Shown here one piece after another: positions 2,927-29,670 of a DNA stretch of 64,000 nucleotides. The DNA is from Halorientalis litorea (lineage in GTDB: Archaea; Halobacteriota; Halobacteria; Halobacteriales; Haloarculaceae), in the NCBI RefSeq assembly GCF_023028225.1, contig NZ_CP095482.1:124001-188000 (forward strand), read 5' to 3'. The notes beneath the pieces are model-generated. The model had not been told where the DNA came from. It made no database searches and was given only the letters and a program-made list of their open reading frames with translations. Position numbers and translations under genes: made by a program. The stretch's first letter is position 1, and each line of letters opens with the position of its first letter.

Positions 2927-4569
2927 CGCTCGCCGCCCGTGGCGTCGGCGTCGAGCAACACACCGGGGTTCATCACGCCCGCCGGGTCCAGCGAGGACTT
3001 TGCGGATTCGAGGACGCGCCGGAACGCCGCGGGCGATTCGTCCGCGTAGTGGTCGCGGTGGAGGCGTCCGACGGCGTGGTGGTGGGTGATGGTACCACCG
3101 TACTCCTCGATGACATCCGAGGCCACCTGCTTGATGTCGCGCCACTGCTCCAGTTCGCGGCCCACGTCGGCGGGCGCGAGGAGCGTGTAGTAGGGCGCGG
3201 GACCGTCGGGGTAGACGTGCGTGAACCGCGTCGAGAGGAAGCCAGCCCCACATACGTCCTCCATCTCGTCCATCACCTGCGATTGTATTTCGGCGTGGAG
3301 GGTCGGGAACTGGTCCCACGTCACCGCCGTCTCGAAGGTGTCCACGATGACGCCCATGCTGACGAGTGCGTCGAACTTGTACGGCCCCTCGAAGAAGGCG
3401 GACCGCCAGTCGCCCTCCGTTCCGTCCCGGCCCTCGTCGCCTTCGTCGGAGAGATGCGGGCCCTCTGAACTGGGCGCGTCGTCGACAGTGCCGCCGTGGG
3501 TTTCGGTTATCTCGATTGCCCGCGAGAGGGCGTCGTCGACCGGATGGTCGACGGACTCGAACCCCAACACGAGGACGTGACTGCCGTCCATCGCCACCTC
3601 GTTGAGCATCGCTTCGTTGCGGTCGAGCAGGCGACAGTTCGCTGGAGAGAGTCGCGCCTGTACGATGTCGCGCGTCGCGGCGACAGCGGCGTCGAACTCC
3701 CGGAATTTCACGCTGGCGCGGGCGCGGTACGGCGGCCGTGGCTGGACGCGCATCCACGCCTCCGTGACGACGCCGAGAGCACCCTCAGACCCCAGCACGA
3801 GCCGGTTGGGGTCCGGTCCCGCGCCGGAGGCGGGGAGGCGGCGCGTCTCGAAGGAACCCGACGGAGTGACCATCCGAACGCTCTCGACGAAGTCGTCGAT
3901 GTGCGTGTACCGAGTGGCGAAGTGGCCGCCCGCCCGAGTCACAATCCACCCGCCCAGCGTCGAGAACTCGTAGGACTGGGGGTAGTGGCGCAGTTGCAGG
4001 TCGTACTCAGCGAGTTGGTCGTTGAGTTCCGGTCCCGTCGCCCCGGCTTGTATCAGTGCCGTGCGGGACGTCTCGTCCACCTCTAACACGCTGTCGAGGG
4101 CACGAACCGAGAGCGAGACGACGCCCGAGTACGCCGCGCCGTCGCCCCGCGGGTCGCACTCGACGCCGCCGACGACGCTCGTCCCGCCGCCGTAGGGGAC
4201 GACTGCGACGCGTTCGGCCGTCGCCCACGCGAGCACGTCCTCGATTTCGCCTTCGGTCTCGGGTTCGGCCACCGCGTCGGGTGCGGCGTCGAACTCGCCG
4301 TGGAAGCCGCGCACGATGTCGCGGTAGCCCCGGCCGTAGGTGTGCCGCACCCGGTCAACCGTGTCCGTCGAGACGATGCCCGAAAGTGATTCCGGGACGG
4401 TCAGCCGTGACTCGGGTATCGTCACGTCGTCGATGGTCGGCGGGTCCATCAGCGCGCGCTCGGGGAAGCCAAGCAGTGTCTCCACCTGTGACTTGAGTTC
4501 TCTGCGCTCGTCGTCGTCCGGGAACCGGTCGGCGTAGCCCCAGCCCCAGAAGCTCAACTCGTCGTCCAT
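2923..4569 (-). CDS. FAD-linked oxidase, alkylglycerone-phosphate-synthase-like
   Basis: 548-residue flavoprotein of the vanillyl-alcohol-oxidase fold. The N-terminus (FWGWGYADRFPDDDERRELKS) and the C-terminal His cluster (GGTITHHHAVG) resemble alkyldihydroxyacetone-phosphate synthase (AGPS). In between, PYGGGTSVVGG (near residue 125) is the FAD_binding_4 pyrophosphate loop and HYPQSYEFSTLGGW is typical of the family. Archaeal lipids use isoprenoid ethers made by GGGP synthase, so true AGPS activity is unlikely; a D-2-hydroxyacid or glycolate-type dehydrogenase is an alternative. Translationally coupled to the next gene. Confidence 0.85.
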   Translation of the reverse strand: MDDELSFWGWGYADRFPDDDERRELKSQVETLLGFPERALMDPPTIDDVTIPESRLTVPESLSGIVSTDTVDRVRHTYGRGYRDIVRGFHGEFDAAPDAVAEPETEGEIEDVLAWATAERVAVVPYGGGTSVVGGVECDPRGDGAAYSGVVSLSVRALDSVLEVDETSRTALIQAGATGPELNDQLAEYDLQLRHYPQSYEFSTLGGWIVTRAGGHFATRYTHIDDFVESVRMVTPSGSFETRRLPASGAGPDPNRLVLGSEGALGVVTEAWMRVQPRPPYRARASVKFREFDAAVAATRDIVQARLSPANCRLLDRNEAMLNEVAMDGSHVLVLGFESVDHPVDDALSRAIEITETHGGTVDDAPSSEGPHLSDEGDEGRDGTEGDWRSAFFEGPYKFDALVSMGVIVDTFETAVTWDQFPTLHAEIQSQVMDEMEDVCGAGFLSTRFTHVYPDGPAPYYTLLAPADVGRELEQWRDIKQVASDVIEEYGGTITHHHAVGRLHRDHYADESPAAFRRVLESAKSSLDPAGVMNPGVLLDADATGGER

Positions 4570-22188: not shown

Positions 22189-22196
22189 CTTTATAA
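22189..22196 (+). promoter_or_regulatory. TATA box of the biotin operon
   Basis: CTTTATAA is centred 27 bases before the GTG of bioB, predicting a leaderless operon transcript and supporting that start. Confidence 0.6.
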
Positions 22197-22219
22197 TCTC
22201 GTCAACCAACTACTTCGTT

Positions 22220-23347
22220 GTGGTTTACGAGACCGGCAACACGACGATAGACGACGCCGTCGAGCGGTTGATGGCGGGCGAACGGCTCGACCGCCGCGAC
22301 GGACTCGCGCTCGTTGCACAGCCGGTCGAGGAACTCGCCGTCGCCGCCGACTACGTGCGCTCGCAGTTCGGCGACGACACCGTGGACGCCTGTTCCATCG
22401 TGAACGCGAAGGCGGGCAACTGCGCCGAGGACTGTGGGTTCTGTGCGCAGTCGGTCCACTTCGACACCGGCATCGACACGTACGGGTTCCTCGACCCGGA
22501 AGAGATACTCGACGCCGCGAAACGGGCCGAGCGCGACGGTGCCCAGCGGTTCGGCATCGTCGTCGCCGAAAAAGGCGTCTCGAAAGAACAACGACCCGAC
22601 GAGTGGGCAGACGTCATCCGCGCCATCCGCCTCGTCCGGGACGAGACAGACGTGGAAGTCGACGCTTCACTCGGTATTCTCACCGAGGAGGAGGCGAGCA
22701 TTCTCGCCGACGAGGGTATCAATCACTACAATCACAACATCGAGACTTCGCCTCGGTTCTTCCCGGAAATCGTCGAGACCCACTCCTTCGAGGACCGGGT
22801 ACGGACCCTCGAAGTCGCCAAGAACGCGGGGATGGACCTCTGTGCCGGCGTCATCCTCGGGATGGGCGAGACGCCGACGGACCGCGTGGACGCGGCCATC
22901 GCGCTCCAGGACATCGGCGTCTCATCGCTCCCGGTGAACATCTTGAACCCCGTCGCCGGGACAGACCTCGGGGACCGACTCGGCGAGTCGGCGGACATCT
23001 CCACCGAGGAGATAATTGGGACGATAGCGGTGTACCGCCTGCTCCACCCCGAGGCACGGGTGCGGCTGACGGGCGGGCGCGAGGTCAACCTCGACGCGGA
23101 CGAACAACACCTGCCGTTCGAGGCGGGTGCCGACGGCATCCTGACCGGGGACTACCTCACCACGTCGGGCCAGGACCCCGGCGACGACATCGCGGCGATG
23201 GAGGAGGCCGGACTGGAGCCGAACATGGACGCGAACGAGTTCGACAAGGAGGCGGTCAAGGCCCGGGCCGAGGACGGCCCGACCGGCGACGGAACCGTCG
23301 AGACGGCGGCGGGGACCGCGACGAGCAACGCGGAACTGGACGACTAA
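22220..23347 (+). CDS. bioB: biotin synthase
   Basis: Radical-SAM enzyme that inserts sulfur into dethiobiotin. 375 residues. The CxxxCxxC motif is in GNCAEDCGFCAQS, and NIETSPRFFP plus later TIM-barrel motifs are intact. The C-terminus carries an acidic haloarchaeal extension of about 40 residues. The GTG start is supported by the TATA box. It is the first gene of bioB-bioU-bioF-bioD, with 17 bases to the next gene. Confidence 0.96.
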   Translation: MVYETGNTTIDDAVERLMAGERLDRRDGLALVAQPVEELAVAADYVRSQFGDDTVDACSIVNAKAGNCAEDCGFCAQSVHFDTGIDTYGFLDPEEILDAAKRAERDGAQRFGIVVAEKGVSKEQRPDEWADVIRAIRLVRDETDVEVDASLGILTEEEASILADEGINHYNHNIETSPRFFPEIVETHSFEDRVRTLEVAKNAGMDLCAGVILGMGETPTDRVDAAIALQDIGVSSLPVNILNPVAGTDLGDRLGESADISTEEIIGTIAVYRLLHPEARVRLTGGREVNLDADEQHLPFEAGADGILTGDYLTTSGQDPGDDIAAMEEAGLEPNMDANEFDKEAVKARAEDGPTGDGTVETAAGTATSNAELDD

Positions 23348-23364
23348 ACGAACGCTTTCGATAC

Positions 23365-24411
23365 ATGAACGACATCAACTTCGCGGTACTGGGAACCGGT
23401 GGCATCGGCAGACGGACGCTCGAAGTCTCACAGGACAAAGCGGCACTCACACCCGTCGCGGCGTGTGACCGCCACGGCGTCGCCGTCGACCACGGTGGCC
23501 TCGACGTGGACGAACTGCTCGCCGCGACGGAGGGCAACATCGCGAGCGACGGCGGCACCGCGACGGTCGACCCCGACGACGGCATCAAACAGACCGGCGA
23601 GGACGCGGGCGTCGCGGCCTCGGCACAGGCCGACCCGACGGACGCGCCCATCGAGGCGATTATCGAGGAGAGCGACCGTATCGACGCGGTACTGCTCGCA
23701 CTCCCGAACTTCGAGCACGACTTCATCCCCGGCGTCGCCGACCGCTTCGCCGAGGCGGGCTACGAGGGCGTCCTCGTGGACGTACTCAAGCGGTCGCGTG
23801 TCATCGGGATGCTGGACGAGAAGACGGAACGGTTCGAGTCGGAAGGAATCACCTTCGTCTGCGGTGCGGGTGCGACCCCGGGATTCCTGACCGGGGCGGC
23901 CGCACTCGCCGCACAGTCGTTCGTCGACGTCGAGGAGGTCGAGATTCACTGGGGCGTCGGCCTCAAGTCGGGGTACGAGGACAACCGCGGCACCGTCCGT
24001 GAGGACATCGCCCACCTCCCGGGGTACGATATCGAGGACGCACGGGAGATGAGCGACGCCGAAATCGAGGCGGTCATCGACGACCACGACGGGGTCATCG
24101 AATTCGAGGACATGGAACACGCCGACGACGTGCTGTTGGAGCGGGCAGGTATCTGCGACGCCGAGGACGTGACCGTGGGCGGCGTTCTCGACGTAACCAG
24201 CGACGAGAAGCCGACGACGACCACCGTCCGCGTGACGGGCCGAACCTTCGACGGCGAGACGGGCACGAACACCTTCCAGTTGGACGACGCGACGAGCATG
24301 GAGGCGAACGTCAACGGCCCGGCACTGGGCTATCTCACGGCCGGCGTCCGCCGAAACCGCGCCGGAGAGTACGGCGTGTTCGGCCCCGCGGACCTGATGC
24401 CGGGCTTTTAG
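23365..24411 (+). CDS. bioU: BioU-type (S)-8-amino-7-oxononanoate synthase, suicide enzyme
   Basis: 348 residues with an N-terminal Rossmann fold (FAVLGTGGIGRRTLE). It sits exactly between bioB and bioF, where a step converting KAPA to DAPA is needed, and no bioA is present. BioU, described in cyanobacteria with haloarchaeal homologues, is a dehydrogenase-like single-turnover protein that donates the amino group of its own lysine. The best candidate here is Lys142 in GVLVDVLKRSRVIGML. Identification rests on fold, context and recollection of the family; a saccharopine- or homoserine-dehydrogenase-like oxidoreductase is the alternative. The next ATG follows its stop directly. Confidence 0.82.
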   Translation: MNDINFAVLGTGGIGRRTLEVSQDKAALTPVAACDRHGVAVDHGGLDVDELLAATEGNIASDGGTATVDPDDGIKQTGEDAGVAASAQADPTDAPIEAIIEESDRIDAVLLALPNFEHDFIPGVADRFAEAGYEGVLVDVLKRSRVIGMLDEKTERFESEGITFVCGAGATPGFLTGAAALAAQSFVDVEEVEIHWGVGLKSGYEDNRGTVREDIAHLPGYDIEDAREMSDAEIEAVIDDHDGVIEFEDMEHADDVLLERAGICDAEDVTVGGVLDVTSDEKPTTTTVRVTGRTFDGETGTNTFQLDDATSMEANVNGPALGYLTAGVRRNRAGEYGVFGPADLMPGF

Positions 24412-25665
24412 ATGTCCGGCGAGGCCGACGGGGGAGCAGACACGCCCCGGGACCGGACCCCGGACCGCGGCTTCGACCCGGCCGGTCGGCTCGCGGCGCG
24501 AGCGCGTGACGACTTGCGGCGTGACCTCACACCCGTCGAACGCGTCGCAGCCCGGAGTCGGCTGGCCGAAGACCCGGGTAGCGATCCTATTACCTTCGAC
24601 GGTGACGAGCGCGTCGTCTTCGCCGCGAACAACTACCTCGGGCTGGCGGGCGAAGAGCGCGTCCGGGCGGCCGCCGCCGAAGCGGCCAGCGACGTGGGCA
24701 CCGGTGCGGGTGCGAGCCGTCTGATTACGGGCGATACGCCGGCCCACCGCGAACTGGAGCGGGAACTCGCCGACGCCAAGGGAACCGAGCGCGCGCTGGC
24801 GTTTTCCTCGGGGTACGCGACGAACGTCGGGACTATCACGGCACTCGACCCCGACGTGATTATCTCGGACGAGTTGAACCACGCGAGTATCGTCGACGCC
24901 TGCCGACTCACGGACGCGGAGACGTACGTCTACGACCACTGTGACCCCACAGACCTGCGGGCGACGATGCGAGAGCGGTCACGCGAGGCGACGGGCGAGG
25001 AGTCGTGGCTCGTCGTCACCGATTCGGTGTTCAGTATGGACGGCGACGTGGCCTCCCTCGCCGCAATCTGTGACGCCGTCGAGGAGTTCGGCGCGTGGTT
25101 GATGATCGACGAGGCACACGCCACGGGCCTCTACGCAGACGGCGGCGGTGTCGTCCAGCGTGAGGGCCTCGCCGACCGTGTCCACGTCCAGATGGGGACG
25201 CTCTCGAAGGCACTCGGGAGTCAGGGTGGCTACGTCGCGGGAAGTGCGACGCTGATAGAACACCTCCTCAACGCCGCACGCTCGTTCGTCTTCTCGACGG
25301 GACTCGCACCGCCGTCGGCCGCCGCGGCGCGGGCGGCACTTCGCGTCGCCCGCGAGGACGAGCGTCGCCGCGAGCAACTGTGGGAGAACGTCGCCCGTCT
25401 CCGCGACGGCCTCGAAGCCATCGGCTACGACGTGTGGGGCGAGACGCAGATTCTCCCCGTCGTCGTCGGAGACCGAGAGCGGACGATGGCACTCGGCGAC
25501 ACCCTCGACGACCACGGTATCGTCGCACCGGGTATCCGTCCGCCGACGGTTCCCGAGGGGACCAGCCGAATCCGCGTCGCTCCGATGGCGACACACACCG
25601 AGGAAGACATACAGCGGTGTCTCGACGCCTTCCGCGCCGCGGGTGAGGAGTTGGACCTCGTATGA
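24412..25665 (+). CDS. bioF: 8-amino-7-oxononanoate synthase
   Basis: PLP enzyme condensing alanine with a pimeloyl thioester to KAPA. 417 residues. The conserved AANNYLGLAG, GTGAGASRLITG, DELNHASI, DEAHATG and the Schiff-base lysine in GTLSKALGS (Lys266) are all present. A haloarchaeal N-terminal extension of about 30 acidic/Arg-rich residues precedes the fold. It is directly joined to bioU upstream and overlaps bioD by four bases (ATGA). Confidence 0.95.
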   Translation: MSGEADGGADTPRDRTPDRGFDPAGRLAARARDDLRRDLTPVERVAARSRLAEDPGSDPITFDGDERVVFAANNYLGLAGEERVRAAAAEAASDVGTGAGASRLITGDTPAHRELERELADAKGTERALAFSSGYATNVGTITALDPDVIISDELNHASIVDACRLTDAETYVYDHCDPTDLRATMRERSREATGEESWLVVTDSVFSMDGDVASLAAICDAVEEFGAWLMIDEAHATGLYADGGGVVQREGLADRVHVQMGTLSKALGSQGGYVAGSATLIEHLLNAARSFVFSTGLAPPSAAAARAALRVAREDERRREQLWENVARLRDGLEAIGYDVWGETQILPVVVGDRERTMALGDTLDDHGIVAPGIRPPTVPEGTSRIRVAPMATHTEEDIQRCLDAFRAAGEELDLV

Positions 25666-26330
25666 CCGACGACGGAGGTATTGCCGTTGTGGGAACCGGC
25701 ACGGGTGTCGGCAAGACCGTCGTCACCGCAGGTCTCGTCGGCGTTCTCCGGGAGGACGGCGTCGACGCCCGCGCGGTGAAACCCTGTCAAACCGGCCACC
25801 CGCCCGACGACGACGCGGCGTTCGTCGCCACGGCCTGTGGGACGGAGGCGGCCGCGACCTGTCTGGCGCGGTTAGAACCGCCGCTTGCCCCGGCAGTCGC
25901 CGCCGAGCAGGCCGGTGCGGACCTCTCCTACCAGCGACTCCGCGACGGCTGTGAGCGCCAACTCGCCGCCGCCGAGACGGGTCTCGTGGAGGGCATCGGC
26001 GGTCTCCGGGTACCGCTCGCGGATGGCCACGAGGTTCTGGATTTGGTGGCCGACCTCGACGTGTCCGCGGTGGTCGTCGCGCGCTCGGGACTGGGGACGC
26101 TGAATCACACCACACTAACCGTCGACGCGCTCCGACGGCAGAACGTGCCCGTCCGCGGCATCGTCCTCAACAGGTACGGGGGGGCCTCGACCGCCGAGCG
26201 AACGAACCCGGCGGTACTGGAACGGATGACCGACCTGTCGGTCCATACGCTTCCCGAGACAGACCTCACCGACCCGTGTGCGGCCGTCGATGCCGTGGCG
26301 GACCACCTCCCACGGTCGCTGGTCCGTTGA
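25662..26330 (+). CDS. bioD: dethiobiotin synthetase
   Basis: ATP-dependent carboxylation of DAPA to dethiobiotin. 222 residues, normal length. The P-loop GTGTGVGKT begins near residue 11, the substrate-binding VKPCQTG follows, and EGIGGLRVPL corresponds to the conserved EGAGG. Last gene of the operon; convergent with the Pta-like gene behind two strong hairpins. No gene for making the pimeloyl precursor is in the window. Confidence 0.95.
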   Translation: MTDDGGIAVVGTGTGVGKTVVTAGLVGVLREDGVDARAVKPCQTGHPPDDDAAFVATACGTEAAATCLARLEPPLAPAVAAEQAGADLSYQRLRDGCERQLAAAETGLVEGIGGLRVPLADGHEVLDLVADLDVSAVVVARSGLGTLNHTTLTVDALRRQNVPVRGIVLNRYGGASTAERTNPAVLERMTDLSVHTLPETDLTDPCAAVDAVADHLPRSLVR

Positions 26331-26497: not shown

Positions 26498-27565
26498 TCA
26501 CTCCGAGAGGGCGACGAGTGCGTCGAGGTCCGCGGCGTCCGCGAGCAACTCGCCCATCCGCGCGACGGAGTCGGCGTCCTGTGTCCGGCCGCCGCCGATG
26601 ACGGACTCGACGCGGTCGATGGTGGTCCGGGTGTTGGCACCGAGGAGGAGGACCGGCTTCCCGGCGTCCTCGGCGCGGCCGATGACCGCACCCGTGGGAC
26701 GGTGGCCGCCGCTCAGGACCAGACAGCGCACGCCGCTGGCTTCGAGGGCGGCAGTCTGGATATCCGGGCGGTCGCCACCGGTGACGACGGCGGCGTCGCG
26801 GGTCCGGCGGAATCCCGAGAGTGCCGCGTCCCGTCCCATCGCGCCGACGAGGAACCGCTCGACGAACCCGTCGGTGGGGGCGTCCGTCGTCAGCACCTCC
26901 GCGCCGAGTTCGGCGGCGAGTTCGCCGACGGTTACCCCGGCGAGTTCCCTGACCGTCGGGAGCGCGCCGAACACGGGCACCCCTCGTCCTTCGAGGAACG
27001 GAATCACGTCCTCGGTGAGTTGGTCGAAGTCAGCGTCCGCGACGCTGTTGAACAGGACGCCACCGAGGCGGTCACCGAAGGCGTCGGCGGCCGCGAGCAC
27101 GTCGTCCACGTCCCGCGGGTCGTCGTACTCGCTCACCAAGAGGACCGAGGCGTCCAATACGTCGGCCACGTCCGGGTCGGTCAGGTCCACGATGCCACCC
27201 GTCGTGTACACGTCAGCACCCTCGACGACCACGAAGTCGTTGCCGTCGGCTATCGCGCCGTAACTCTCGACGACGCGGTCCCGCAGTGCGGTCGGGTCCT
27301 CGCGGCCGCGGATGGCGTCCTCCACGAACGTCGGCGAGTAGACGACCGGTTCCATCTCGTGGGTCTCGGTGTCGAGGTCGAGAACCTCACGCGCCAACAG
27401 CGGGTCGCGGTCGAGCGTCTTGCCGACTGCGCTCTGGAGCTGGGTGCCGCGTGGTTTCATGTAGCCGACCGACCGGCCGCGGTCGGCGGCGTGACGGGCC
27501 AGCGCGAGCGCGACGGCCGTCTTGCCTGTACTCTCGGTGGTCGAACTGACGAGTATCGGGTTCAT
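26498..27565 (-). CDS. phosphotransacetylase-family (BioD-like + DRTGG) protein
   Basis: 355 residues. The N-terminal BioD/CobB-type P-loop NTPase domain (SSTTESTGKTAVALALA, residues 6-22; up to about 215) is followed by a DRTGG-type domain (about 220-330). This layout equals the N-terminal regulatory part of bacterial phosphotransacetylases but lacks the catalytic PTA domain. Its start overlaps the stop of the ADP-forming acetate-CoA ligase (ATGA), so it is likely an accessory or nucleotide-sensing regulator of that enzyme. Confidence 0.85.
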   Translation of the reverse strand: MNPILVSSTTESTGKTAVALALARHAADRGRSVGYMKPRGTQLQSAVGKTLDRDPLLAREVLDLDTETHEMEPVVYSPTFVEDAIRGREDPTALRDRVVESYGAIADGNDFVVVEGADVYTTGGIVDLTDPDVADVLDASVLLVSEYDDPRDVDDVLAAADAFGDRLGGVLFNSVADADFDQLTEDVIPFLEGRGVPVFGALPTVRELAGVTVGELAAELGAEVLTTDAPTDGFVERFLVGAMGRDAALSGFRRTRDAAVVTGGDRPDIQTAALEASGVRCLVLSGGHRPTGAVIGRAEDAGKPVLLLGANTRTTIDRVESVIGGGRTQDADSVARMGELLADAADLDALVALSE

Positions 27566-29670
27566 AGCTCCTCCTTGTCGATGGTGAGTCGCACGTCCAC
27601 TGCTCGAACGCCGTCGGGCGTCGCCACGAGCGGGTTGATGTCCAGTTCCAGTATCGCGGGAAAGTCCGTCACGAGTTGGGAGAGTCGCTGAATCGTCTCC
27701 ACGATGGCGTCCTCGGCGACCGGTTCGCGGCCGCGTGCCCCCCGAAGGAGCGGCGCGGACTCGATGTCGTCGACCATCGACGCCGCCTCGCTCTCACTGA
27801 CCGGCGCGACGCGGACGGTGGTGTCTTCGAGGACTTCGACGAAGATGCCGCCGAGTCCGAACAACACCAGCGGGCCGAACTGCGGGTCGCGGTTCGTCCC
27901 GACGATGGTCTCCGTAGCGTCGTCGAGGGGCAGTTGTTCCTGCACTTGGACGCCCAGCACCCTCGCGTCGGACTGGTAGTTGCGCGCCCGCGCAACGAGG
28001 TCCTCGTACGTATCGCGCACCGCCTCGGGCGTGACGCCGACTTCGACGCCGCCGATGTCGGACTTGTGCAGGATGTCGGGGCTGACGATTTTCATCACGA
28101 CTTCACCCGCGTCGCCCGCGACCCGCTCGGCGGCTTCGCGTGCCGCATCGGGGCTGTCGACCACCTCGCCGTCGGGCGTCGGAATCCCGTACGCGTCCAG
28201 CAGGTCCATCGCTTCGACGCCGAGGCGGTTCGTGTTGCGGTCGGCCGCCGCCCGAAGTATCTCTCGGGCGCGTTCGCGGTCCACGTCGAACGTCGTGGGT
28301 GCCGCGTACTCGCATGCCTGTATCTCGCGGTACTCACGCAGGACGTCGAGGCTGTCGACGGCGCGAGCGGGGTCGAAGTACGTCGGGATGCCGGCCTCGC
28401 TCAGCATCGCCCGCGCGGCCCGCGTGGAGTCCCCGCCCATCAGCGACGCCGCGACGGGAAGACCGTGTTCATCCTGTAACTCGACCGTCGCGGCGGCCAA
28501 CTCCTCGAAGGAGAGGGTCGCGGTCGGACAGGCCAGCACGACTGCCGCGCCGACGTTCGGGTCCCCGAGCGCGATGTCGATTGCCTCGGCGAACCGTTCC
28601 GTGTCGGCGTCGCCGATGACGTCGATGGGGTTGTAGATGTTCGCCCCGTCGGGGAGTGCCTCGCCGAGGGCGTCGAGCGTCCCGTCGGTGAACGACGCCA
28701 TCGAGAGGGCCGTGTCGCCGATGGCGTCGGTGGTCATCACGCCCGGGCCGCCCGCGTTCGTGACGACGGCCACCGAGTCGTTCTCGGGGAGCGGTTGCCC
28801 GGAGAGGATGCCGGCGTAGTCGAACAACTCTTGGACGGTGTCGACACGGACGACGCCCGCCTGGTCGAACCCGGCCTCGTAGGCGCGTTCGCTCCCGGCC
28901 ATCGTCCCCGTGTGGGAGGCGGCGGCCGAGGCTCCGGCCTCGGTGCGTCCGGACTTGACCAGCACGATAGGCGTGTCGTCGGTCACCTCGCGTGCGGCCT
29001 CGATGAACGACGGGCCGTCCGCGATACCTTCGAGGTAGCCCAGAATCACGTCCGTCTCCGGGTCGTCGCCCCACTCGGCGACGAAATCACTCTCGTCCAA
29101 GACGGCCTTGTTGCCCAGCGACACCACGTCACGGAAGCCGATGTCGCGGTCGTTGGCCCAGTCCAGCACCGCCGTGATGAACGCGCCGGACTGGCTCATG
29201 AAGGAAATCGGACCGGGTTGGGCACTCTCGGGGCCGAACGTGGCGTTCATCCCCACGGCCGTGCTCATCACGCCGAGGCTGTTCGGGCCGACGAGGTCGA
29301 GGTCGTACTCCTCGGCGACGGCCCGGAGTTCACGCTCGCGGGCCGCGCCCTCGCTGCCGGCCTCGCTGAACCCGGCGGTGATGACGACGACGGTGTCGAT
29401 ACCGGCCTCGCCACAGTCCGTCACGGCGTCGACGGCGATGTCGGCCGGGACGACGACGATGGCCACGTCCACCGTGCCGGGGACGGACTGCACGTCGTCG
29501 TAACAGTCCAATCCGAGGACCGTTCCGGCGTTCGGGTTGACGGGGACAACCGACCCCGAGAACTCGTCGCGGAGGTTGCTCGTAATAGCGTGACCGACGG
29601 ACCCCGACCGGTCCGTGGCACCGATGACCGCAACGCGGTCGGGGGCAAACAGGGAAGCGAGCCGTCCCAT
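27562..29670 (-). CDS. acd: acetate-CoA ligase (ADP-forming), fused subunits
   Basis: 702 residues carrying the CoA-binding Rossmann domain (VAVIGATDRSGSVG), succinyl-CoA-ligase-like domains and a C-terminal ATP-grasp domain. The phosphorylated His is His253 in SHTGTMAGS. It converts acetyl-CoA, ADP and phosphate to acetate, ATP and CoA, the main acetate-forming route in haloarchaea. Alpha and beta parts are fused, as usual for this group. Other acyl-CoAs may also be used. Confidence 0.93.
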   Translation of the reverse strand: MGRLASLFAPDRVAVIGATDRSGSVGHAITSNLRDEFSGSVVPVNPNAGTVLGLDCYDDVQSVPGTVDVAIVVVPADIAVDAVTDCGEAGIDTVVVITAGFSEAGSEGAARERELRAVAEEYDLDLVGPNSLGVMSTAVGMNATFGPESAQPGPISFMSQSGAFITAVLDWANDRDIGFRDVVSLGNKAVLDESDFVAEWGDDPETDVILGYLEGIADGPSFIEAAREVTDDTPIVLVKSGRTEAGASAAASHTGTMAGSERAYEAGFDQAGVVRVDTVQELFDYAGILSGQPLPENDSVAVVTNAGGPGVMTTDAIGDTALSMASFTDGTLDALGEALPDGANIYNPIDVIGDADTERFAEAIDIALGDPNVGAAVVLACPTATLSFEELAAATVELQDEHGLPVAASLMGGDSTRAARAMLSEAGIPTYFDPARAVDSLDVLREYREIQACEYAAPTTFDVDRERAREILRAAADRNTNRLGVEAMDLLDAYGIPTPDGEVVDSPDAAREAAERVAGDAGEVVMKIVSPDILHKSDIGGVEVGVTPEAVRDTYEDLVARARNYQSDARVLGVQVQEQLPLDDATETIVGTNRDPQFGPLVLFGLGGIFVEVLEDTTVRVAPVSESEAASMVDDIESAPLLRGARGREPVAEDAIVETIQRLSQLVTDFPAILELDINPLVATPDGVRAVDVRLTIDKEEL

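Follow-up and report, generated by a model that had tools for sequence, protein, structure and literature searches.

The mechanism of BioU, the protein of Synechocystis that takes over the KAPA/AON to DAPA/DAN step of biotin synthesis from BioA, has been described (PMC12915131, PMC7133116). For archaea, a 2018 survey of 31 Halobacteria genomes detected bioF in 18, bioD in 14 and bioB in 19 of them, with bioA in none, and called the complete archaeal biotin pathway unknown (PMC6138646). In bacteria, the operator of BirA follows the consensus TTGTAAACC-N14/15-GGTTTACAA (PMC545781).

We analysed a window of 64,000 nt from Halorientalis litorea (contig NZ_CP095482.1, positions 124,001 to 188,000; all coordinates below are counted from the first base of this window) and found a locus that is very probably a four-gene biotin operon with BioU in the place of BioA, Lys142 as the amino donor and probable repression by BirA. 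A sequence-only reading of the locus had already proposed BioU in a biotin operon; this proposal proved correct and is well supported, and it concerns a known enzyme family, not a new kind of system. To it, our genome comparisons add an apparent order-wide absence of bioA, a strict coupling of bioD to bioU and a conserved candidate BirA operator over the start codon.

Organisation of the biotin operon

The four genes lie on the same strand and span window positions 22220–26330. The first, bioB (22220..23347, + strand), encodes a biotin synthase of 375 aa (TIGR00433, 334.8 bits, cut-off 225), and the last, bioD (25662..26330, +), a dethiobiotin synthase of 222 aa (TIGR00347, 119 bits, cut-off 83.3), both above their NCBIfam equivalog cut-offs. 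The product of bioF (24412..25665, +), an 8-amino-7-oxononanoate synthase of 417 aa, has TIGR00858 as its best family and with 417.3 bits falls about 9 bits under the cut-off of 426.45. Between bioB and bioF lies bioU (23365..24411, +), encoding a 348-aa protein with an NAD(P)-type dehydrogenase fold, assigned by phmmer, NF047886 and an AlphaFold model.

The order of bioB, a dehydrogenase-like gene, bioF and bioD given by the sequence-only reading was confirmed by the family profiles, and its description of the four genes as coupled or nearly so agrees with the gaps: 17 nt between bioB and bioU, 0 nt between bioU and bioF (TAG followed directly by ATG) and a 4-nt overlap (ATGA) between bioF and bioD. 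The corresponding medians in Halobacteriales loci are 24, 21 and −4 nt. The same gene order was found again in most of ~105 other fetched Halobacteriales loci, indicating that the arrangement is not due to chance.

Several genomes depart from this layout. Genome G250 carries two bioB–bioU copies (L003 on contig C6 and L078 on contig C11), one in a full operon and the other without adjacent bioF and bioD. Three genomes have a gene of ~200 aa between bioU and bioF (L103:5177-5857, L104 and L113), and a search with the L103 copy returned no Pfam match. The main bioU of G262 is broken across reading frames, and a second, divergent bioB (46% identical) is present at L239:5950-6864.

Identity of the second gene

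Sequence comparison and the predicted structure converge on BioU. The window protein shares 46% identity with Synechocystis Slr0355 over 316 alignment columns, and a phmmer search against the PDB returned Slr0355/BioU entries only, with an E-value of 1.9e-82 to 6ir4. The AlphaFold model (pLDDT 82.8) had the five BioU crystal entries as its best PDB matches (TM 0.88/0.93), the next fold scoring ~0.5. The glycines of the Rossmann glycine-rich loop GTGGIG (residues 10–15; 23392..23409, +) are conserved across 189 BioU proteins.

The predicted sacrificial amino donor, Lys142 (codon at 23788..23790, +), had been placed in a DVLKRSR context from the sequence alone, and correctly so: it aligns with Synechocystis Lys124, in a column that holds Lys in 6ir4 and Ala in 6itd and 6k37, the entries titled K124A. 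His252 (codon at 24118..24120, +) is the equivalent of Synechocystis His233, the residue mutated in 6k38 (H233A); its column is conserved in at least 98% of the 189 proteins and invariant in a set of 25.

NF047886, the NCBIfam equivalog model of BioU, scored the window protein at 331.6 bits, under its cut-off of 600, and the 10 haloarchaeal genomes with a match all stayed below that value. The haloarchaeal branch thus seems to fall outside this cut-off, which is a threshold for annotation; the predicted fold and the aligned residue that define the chemistry are both present in the window protein. By every test applied except this cut-off, alignments and structural model alike identify the second protein as BioU.

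The donor lysine is kept in all 189 aligned proteins (108/108 haloarchaeal and 81/81 cyanobacterial), and VLKRSR is invariant across the 108 haloarchaeal ones. This conservation bears on the possibility that the haloarchaeal homologue is a multi-turnover enzyme, with the amine of the lysine regenerated or a free amino donor (e.g., lysine) used instead. Within the literature examined, single turnover is established only for the cyanobacterial enzyme, the haloarchaeal proteins are just ~43–47% identical to it, and residues 57–80 of the window protein form an insertion that AlphaFold predicted poorly. However, an enzyme with a free donor could do without a conserved lysine, and we regard multiple turnover as quite unlikely.

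Large plasmids of Haloferax larsenii, Natronococcus occultus, Natrinema and Haladaptatus also carry the gene. Seven such plasmid records were retrieved (H1–H7), and the label given to BioU in them is still “transcriptional regulator” or “hypothetical protein”; the cut-off of the reference model misses the haloarchaeal proteins as well. A search of the literature for haloarchaeal BioU found no paper within the literature searched. Weak BioU-like matches in five further genomes (G149, G248, G291, G078 and G096) were rejected: of the five, two were scanned (L115 and L118) and proved nearer to carboxynorspermidine synthase than to BioU. A weak match in G171 was also rejected, as it is a homoserine dehydrogenase.

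Absence of bioA and distribution of bioU in Halobacteriales

A normal bioA elsewhere in the genome would speak against BioU carrying the step, and a search with TIGR00508 found none over the cut-off in the H. litorea genome (99.94% complete), the best match scoring 250 bits against the required 405. The same cut-off was reached in none of 293 Halobacteriales genomes, in agreement with the published table (0 of 31; PMC6138646). With bioF, bioD and bioB present and bioA over the cut-off absent, the genome has the gene content of a bioA replacement.

It could nevertheless be argued that the true BioA is one of the five class-III aminotransferases of the genome, all of which match the bioA model, and that the second gene has another role. 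Two related genomes, both from one genus, do have a class-III aminotransferase between bioU and bioF, on the opposite strand (L056:5108-6430 and L097); its relative in the H. litorea genome is located elsewhere (L034). Against this, one of the five passes the argD model and one a hemL-type model, the operon itself contains bioU and no aminotransferase, and every genome with bioD has bioU, all of which makes a hidden BioA highly improbable. The remaining three class-III aminotransferases match broad aminotransferase families, below the cut-off.

The distribution of the genes points in the same direction as the replacement of BioA by BioU. Among the 293 genomes, bioU was found in 108, bioB in 127 and bioD in 106, and every one of the 106 bioD genomes also carries bioU. 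Only two bioU genomes gave no bioD match, one being an assembly that is 71% complete and the other having bioD split in two. Likewise, bioB accompanies bioU in 107 of 108 genomes (Fisher p = 6e-58, without correction for relatedness). This distribution indicates that BioU closes, across Halobacteriales, the gap that the 2018 survey left at bioA in the biotin synthesis of Halobacteria.

Of the genomes with bioB, 20 lack bioU, and their pathways look broken: in 16 there is no bioF close to bioB, four retain bioB–bioF, and bioD is present in none. Two of the four bioB–bioF genomes, G243 and G273, contain bioU remnants between the two genes, and a third genome, G169, has a truncated bioU behind bioB (remnant positions L120:3999-4182, L122 near 4000-4130 and L114:3959-4228). 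Since all three are without a bioD match, the biotin pathway appears to be decaying there.

Promoter and candidate BirA operator

Upstream of bioB, the sequence contains a TATA-like box, TTTATAAT (22190..22197, +), centred ~26 nt before the GTG start codon, and a comparison of 109 loci shows conserved BRE/TATA columns at −38/−37, −34/−33 and −29 to −26. This spacing implies a leaderless transcript beginning at or near the GTG at 22220. It fits the leaderless promoter of the sequence-only reading, which had overlooked a palindrome over the bioB start. This palindrome, GTCAACC-N14-GGTTTAC (22201..22228, no strand assigned), sits between the TATA box and bioB codon 3, with its right half-site within codons 1–3 (GTG GTT TAC). 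Its half-sites and N14 spacing match the published bacterial BirA consensus (PMC545781).

The arrangement is highly constrained. A half-site GTnAACn lies exactly 19 nt before the bioB start in 103 of 109 loci, with its partner GGTTnAC running from gene base 3, and each alternative offset occurs in at most two of the 109. A scan of the H. litorea genome with GTNAACC-N12-17-GGTTNAC matched three places, namely the bioB start, the region before bioY and the interior of an ORF, compared with a chance expectation of ~1 place (our own estimate from 12 fixed bases) and zero matches for a reversed-pattern control. The second of these, the only other intergenic copy in the genome, is located just upstream of bioY (biotin uptake) and an ABC ATPase gene.

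An alternative explanation would be that the palindrome reflects the conservation of promoter and coding sequence and not a BirA operator, as the right half-site overlaps the conserved bioB N-terminus MVYETGN, with TATA elements nearby. Yet codon 2 of bioB is GTT in ~105 of 109 loci, while across the four genes GTT encodes valine at just 7 of 120 positions, which argues that the coding half-site is conserved as DNA. The left half-site is non-coding and as conserved as the right one, another copy of the palindrome stands before bioY, and both half-sites and spacing fit the BirA consensus; we consider the alternative explanation unlikely. On the strength of the motif match, the palindrome is likely a control element and a candidate BirA operator.

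The genome encodes a single BirA of 315 aa with an N-terminal HTH_11 domain followed by BPL_LplA_LipB and BPL_C, and its gene is located near a biotin carboxylase/carrier gene. Among 17 loci of genomes that have bioB and lack bioU, 15 also retain the site. About 15 haloarchaeal genomes keep bioB alone (L222–L238), mostly with the BirA-like site, as would be expected if they used external dethiobiotin. In two divergent genomes, G037 and G025 (L110 and L111), GTTAAC/GTCAAC half-sites upstream of bioB are closer together and lack the usual start-codon overlap, and the operator layout may have changed there.

Source of the pimeloyl precursor

The sequence-only reading had noted no pimeloyl-forming gene nearby, and the search of the whole genome extended this: BioW was absent, and BioC was absent over its cut-off, with methyltransferases matching far below it. 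BioW is a 6-carboxyhexanoate-CoA ligase. In one divergent haloarchaeon, G011, a bioW gene lies between bioB and bioU (L109:2892-3662; PF03744, 3.2e-66), giving a complete pimelate-to-biotin operon bioB–bioW–bioU–bioF–bioD; none of the other fetched loci contained bioW.

An ADP-forming acyl-CoA synthetase and a DRTGG protein encoded next to the operon (26498–29670) were considered as makers of pimeloyl-CoA and provide only a weak lead. This neighbourhood accompanies the bio operon only in the window’s family of genomes, on the opposite strand and convergent to it, and the best family matches are 4-hydroxybutyrate- and acetate-CoA ligases, leaving it a weak candidate for pimelate activation.

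These results bear on whether the operon serves salvage of external pimelate, KAPA or DAPA in place of de novo synthesis, a reading that is compatible with the identification of BioU. In its favour, the genome encodes no BioW, no BioC over the cut-off and nothing else upstream of BioF, and two loci with long flanking sequence contain bioB–bioU without adjacent bioF and bioD. However, the related archaeon with bioW has the whole route from pimelate, and biotin prototrophy is recorded for Natronomonas pharaonis, which carries at least three putative biotin genes (PMC3403918). Bacterial pimeloyl genes are moreover highly diverse, and the lack of a known one therefore says little. Salvage is thus a possibility of some weight, though not the reading that we favour. 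With a BioY-type biotin transporter encoded as well, and no pimeloyl-forming enzyme recognised in the genome, any de novo biotin flux is putative.

Proposed pathway and its regulation

In the pathway that we propose, BioF would supply 8-amino-7-oxononanoate, which BioU would join to the side-chain amine of Lys142 in an NAD(P)H-dependent reaction. The conjugate would capture CO2, and NAD(P)+-driven release would yield DAN-carbamate and leave Lys142 deaminated, each BioU polypeptide probably being spent once. Ring closure by BioD and sulphur insertion by BioB would follow. Both the chemistry and the single turnover are probably shared with Synechocystis BioU, by analogy with which they are assigned; the same chemistry is the best reading because the donor lysine, the histidine and the fold are conserved.

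A protein consumed once per biotin in a four-gene operon had raised a question of economy, which could plausibly be answered by BirA repressing the operon whenever biotin is abundant. Since the palindrome lies between the TATA box and codon 3, a repressor bound there could block initiation. BirA carrying biotinyl-AMP would probably bind and repress at this palindrome over the leaderless bioB start, and BioU would then likely be produced only when BirA senses a shortage of biotin. The candidate operator makes the affordability of a single-use enzyme directly testable in a genetically tractable group.

Codon adaptation was also considered as a sign of high demand for BioU and was rejected. Relative to a ribosomal-protein reference, bioU exceeded bioF in 61 of 70 loci; this gap disappeared once amino-acid composition was controlled for and related loci were pooled into groups (12 of 21, p = 0.63). 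A residual contrast, with bioU and bioB above bioD, is confounded with operon position.

On balance, we lean slightly towards a wider scheme in which biotinyl-AMP-bound BirA acts on the leaderless start and on bioY, the supply of BioU matches the need for biotin, and most haloarchaea possess an unrecognised pimeloyl-thioester enzyme. If true, it would amount to an archaeal biotin pathway with a consumable enzyme run on demand.

Comparison with known systems

BioA (the DAPA aminotransferase, TIGR00508) acts at the same pathway step as that assigned to BioU; unlike BioU, it is a PLP aminotransferase of unrelated fold, with no representative over the cut-off in the 293 Halobacteriales genomes. 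The next-closest PDB folds, meso-diaminopimelate dehydrogenase (1dap) and archaeal L-lysine dehydrogenase (3abi), are similar at a TM of ~0.5, but share only ~14–18% identity and are ordinary catalytic dehydrogenases.

The regulatory features resemble the bacterial BirA regulon in their half-sites and spacing, in the presence of sites at both the biosynthesis operon and bioY, and in a single BirA that combines an N-terminal HTH with biotin ligase domains. They differ from it in the archaeal TATA promoter and in the position of the right half-site within the start of a probably leaderless bioB. The title of Rodionov et al. 2002 reportedly names archaeal BirA signals.

Overall, the closest known system is BioU of Synechocystis sp. 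PCC 6803 (Slr0355; PDB 6ir4, 6k36, 6itd, 6k37 and 6k38), with which the window protein shares the predicted fold, the donor lysine, the equivalent of His233, the Rossmann glycines and the assigned role in the stead of bioA beside BioF, BioD and BioB. The haloarchaeal protein differs in a longer variable insertion at approximately residues 55–90 and in overall sequence (46% identity over the 316 columns), and, in contrast to the cyanobacterial system, its gene is located in a bioB–bioU–bioF–bioD operon.
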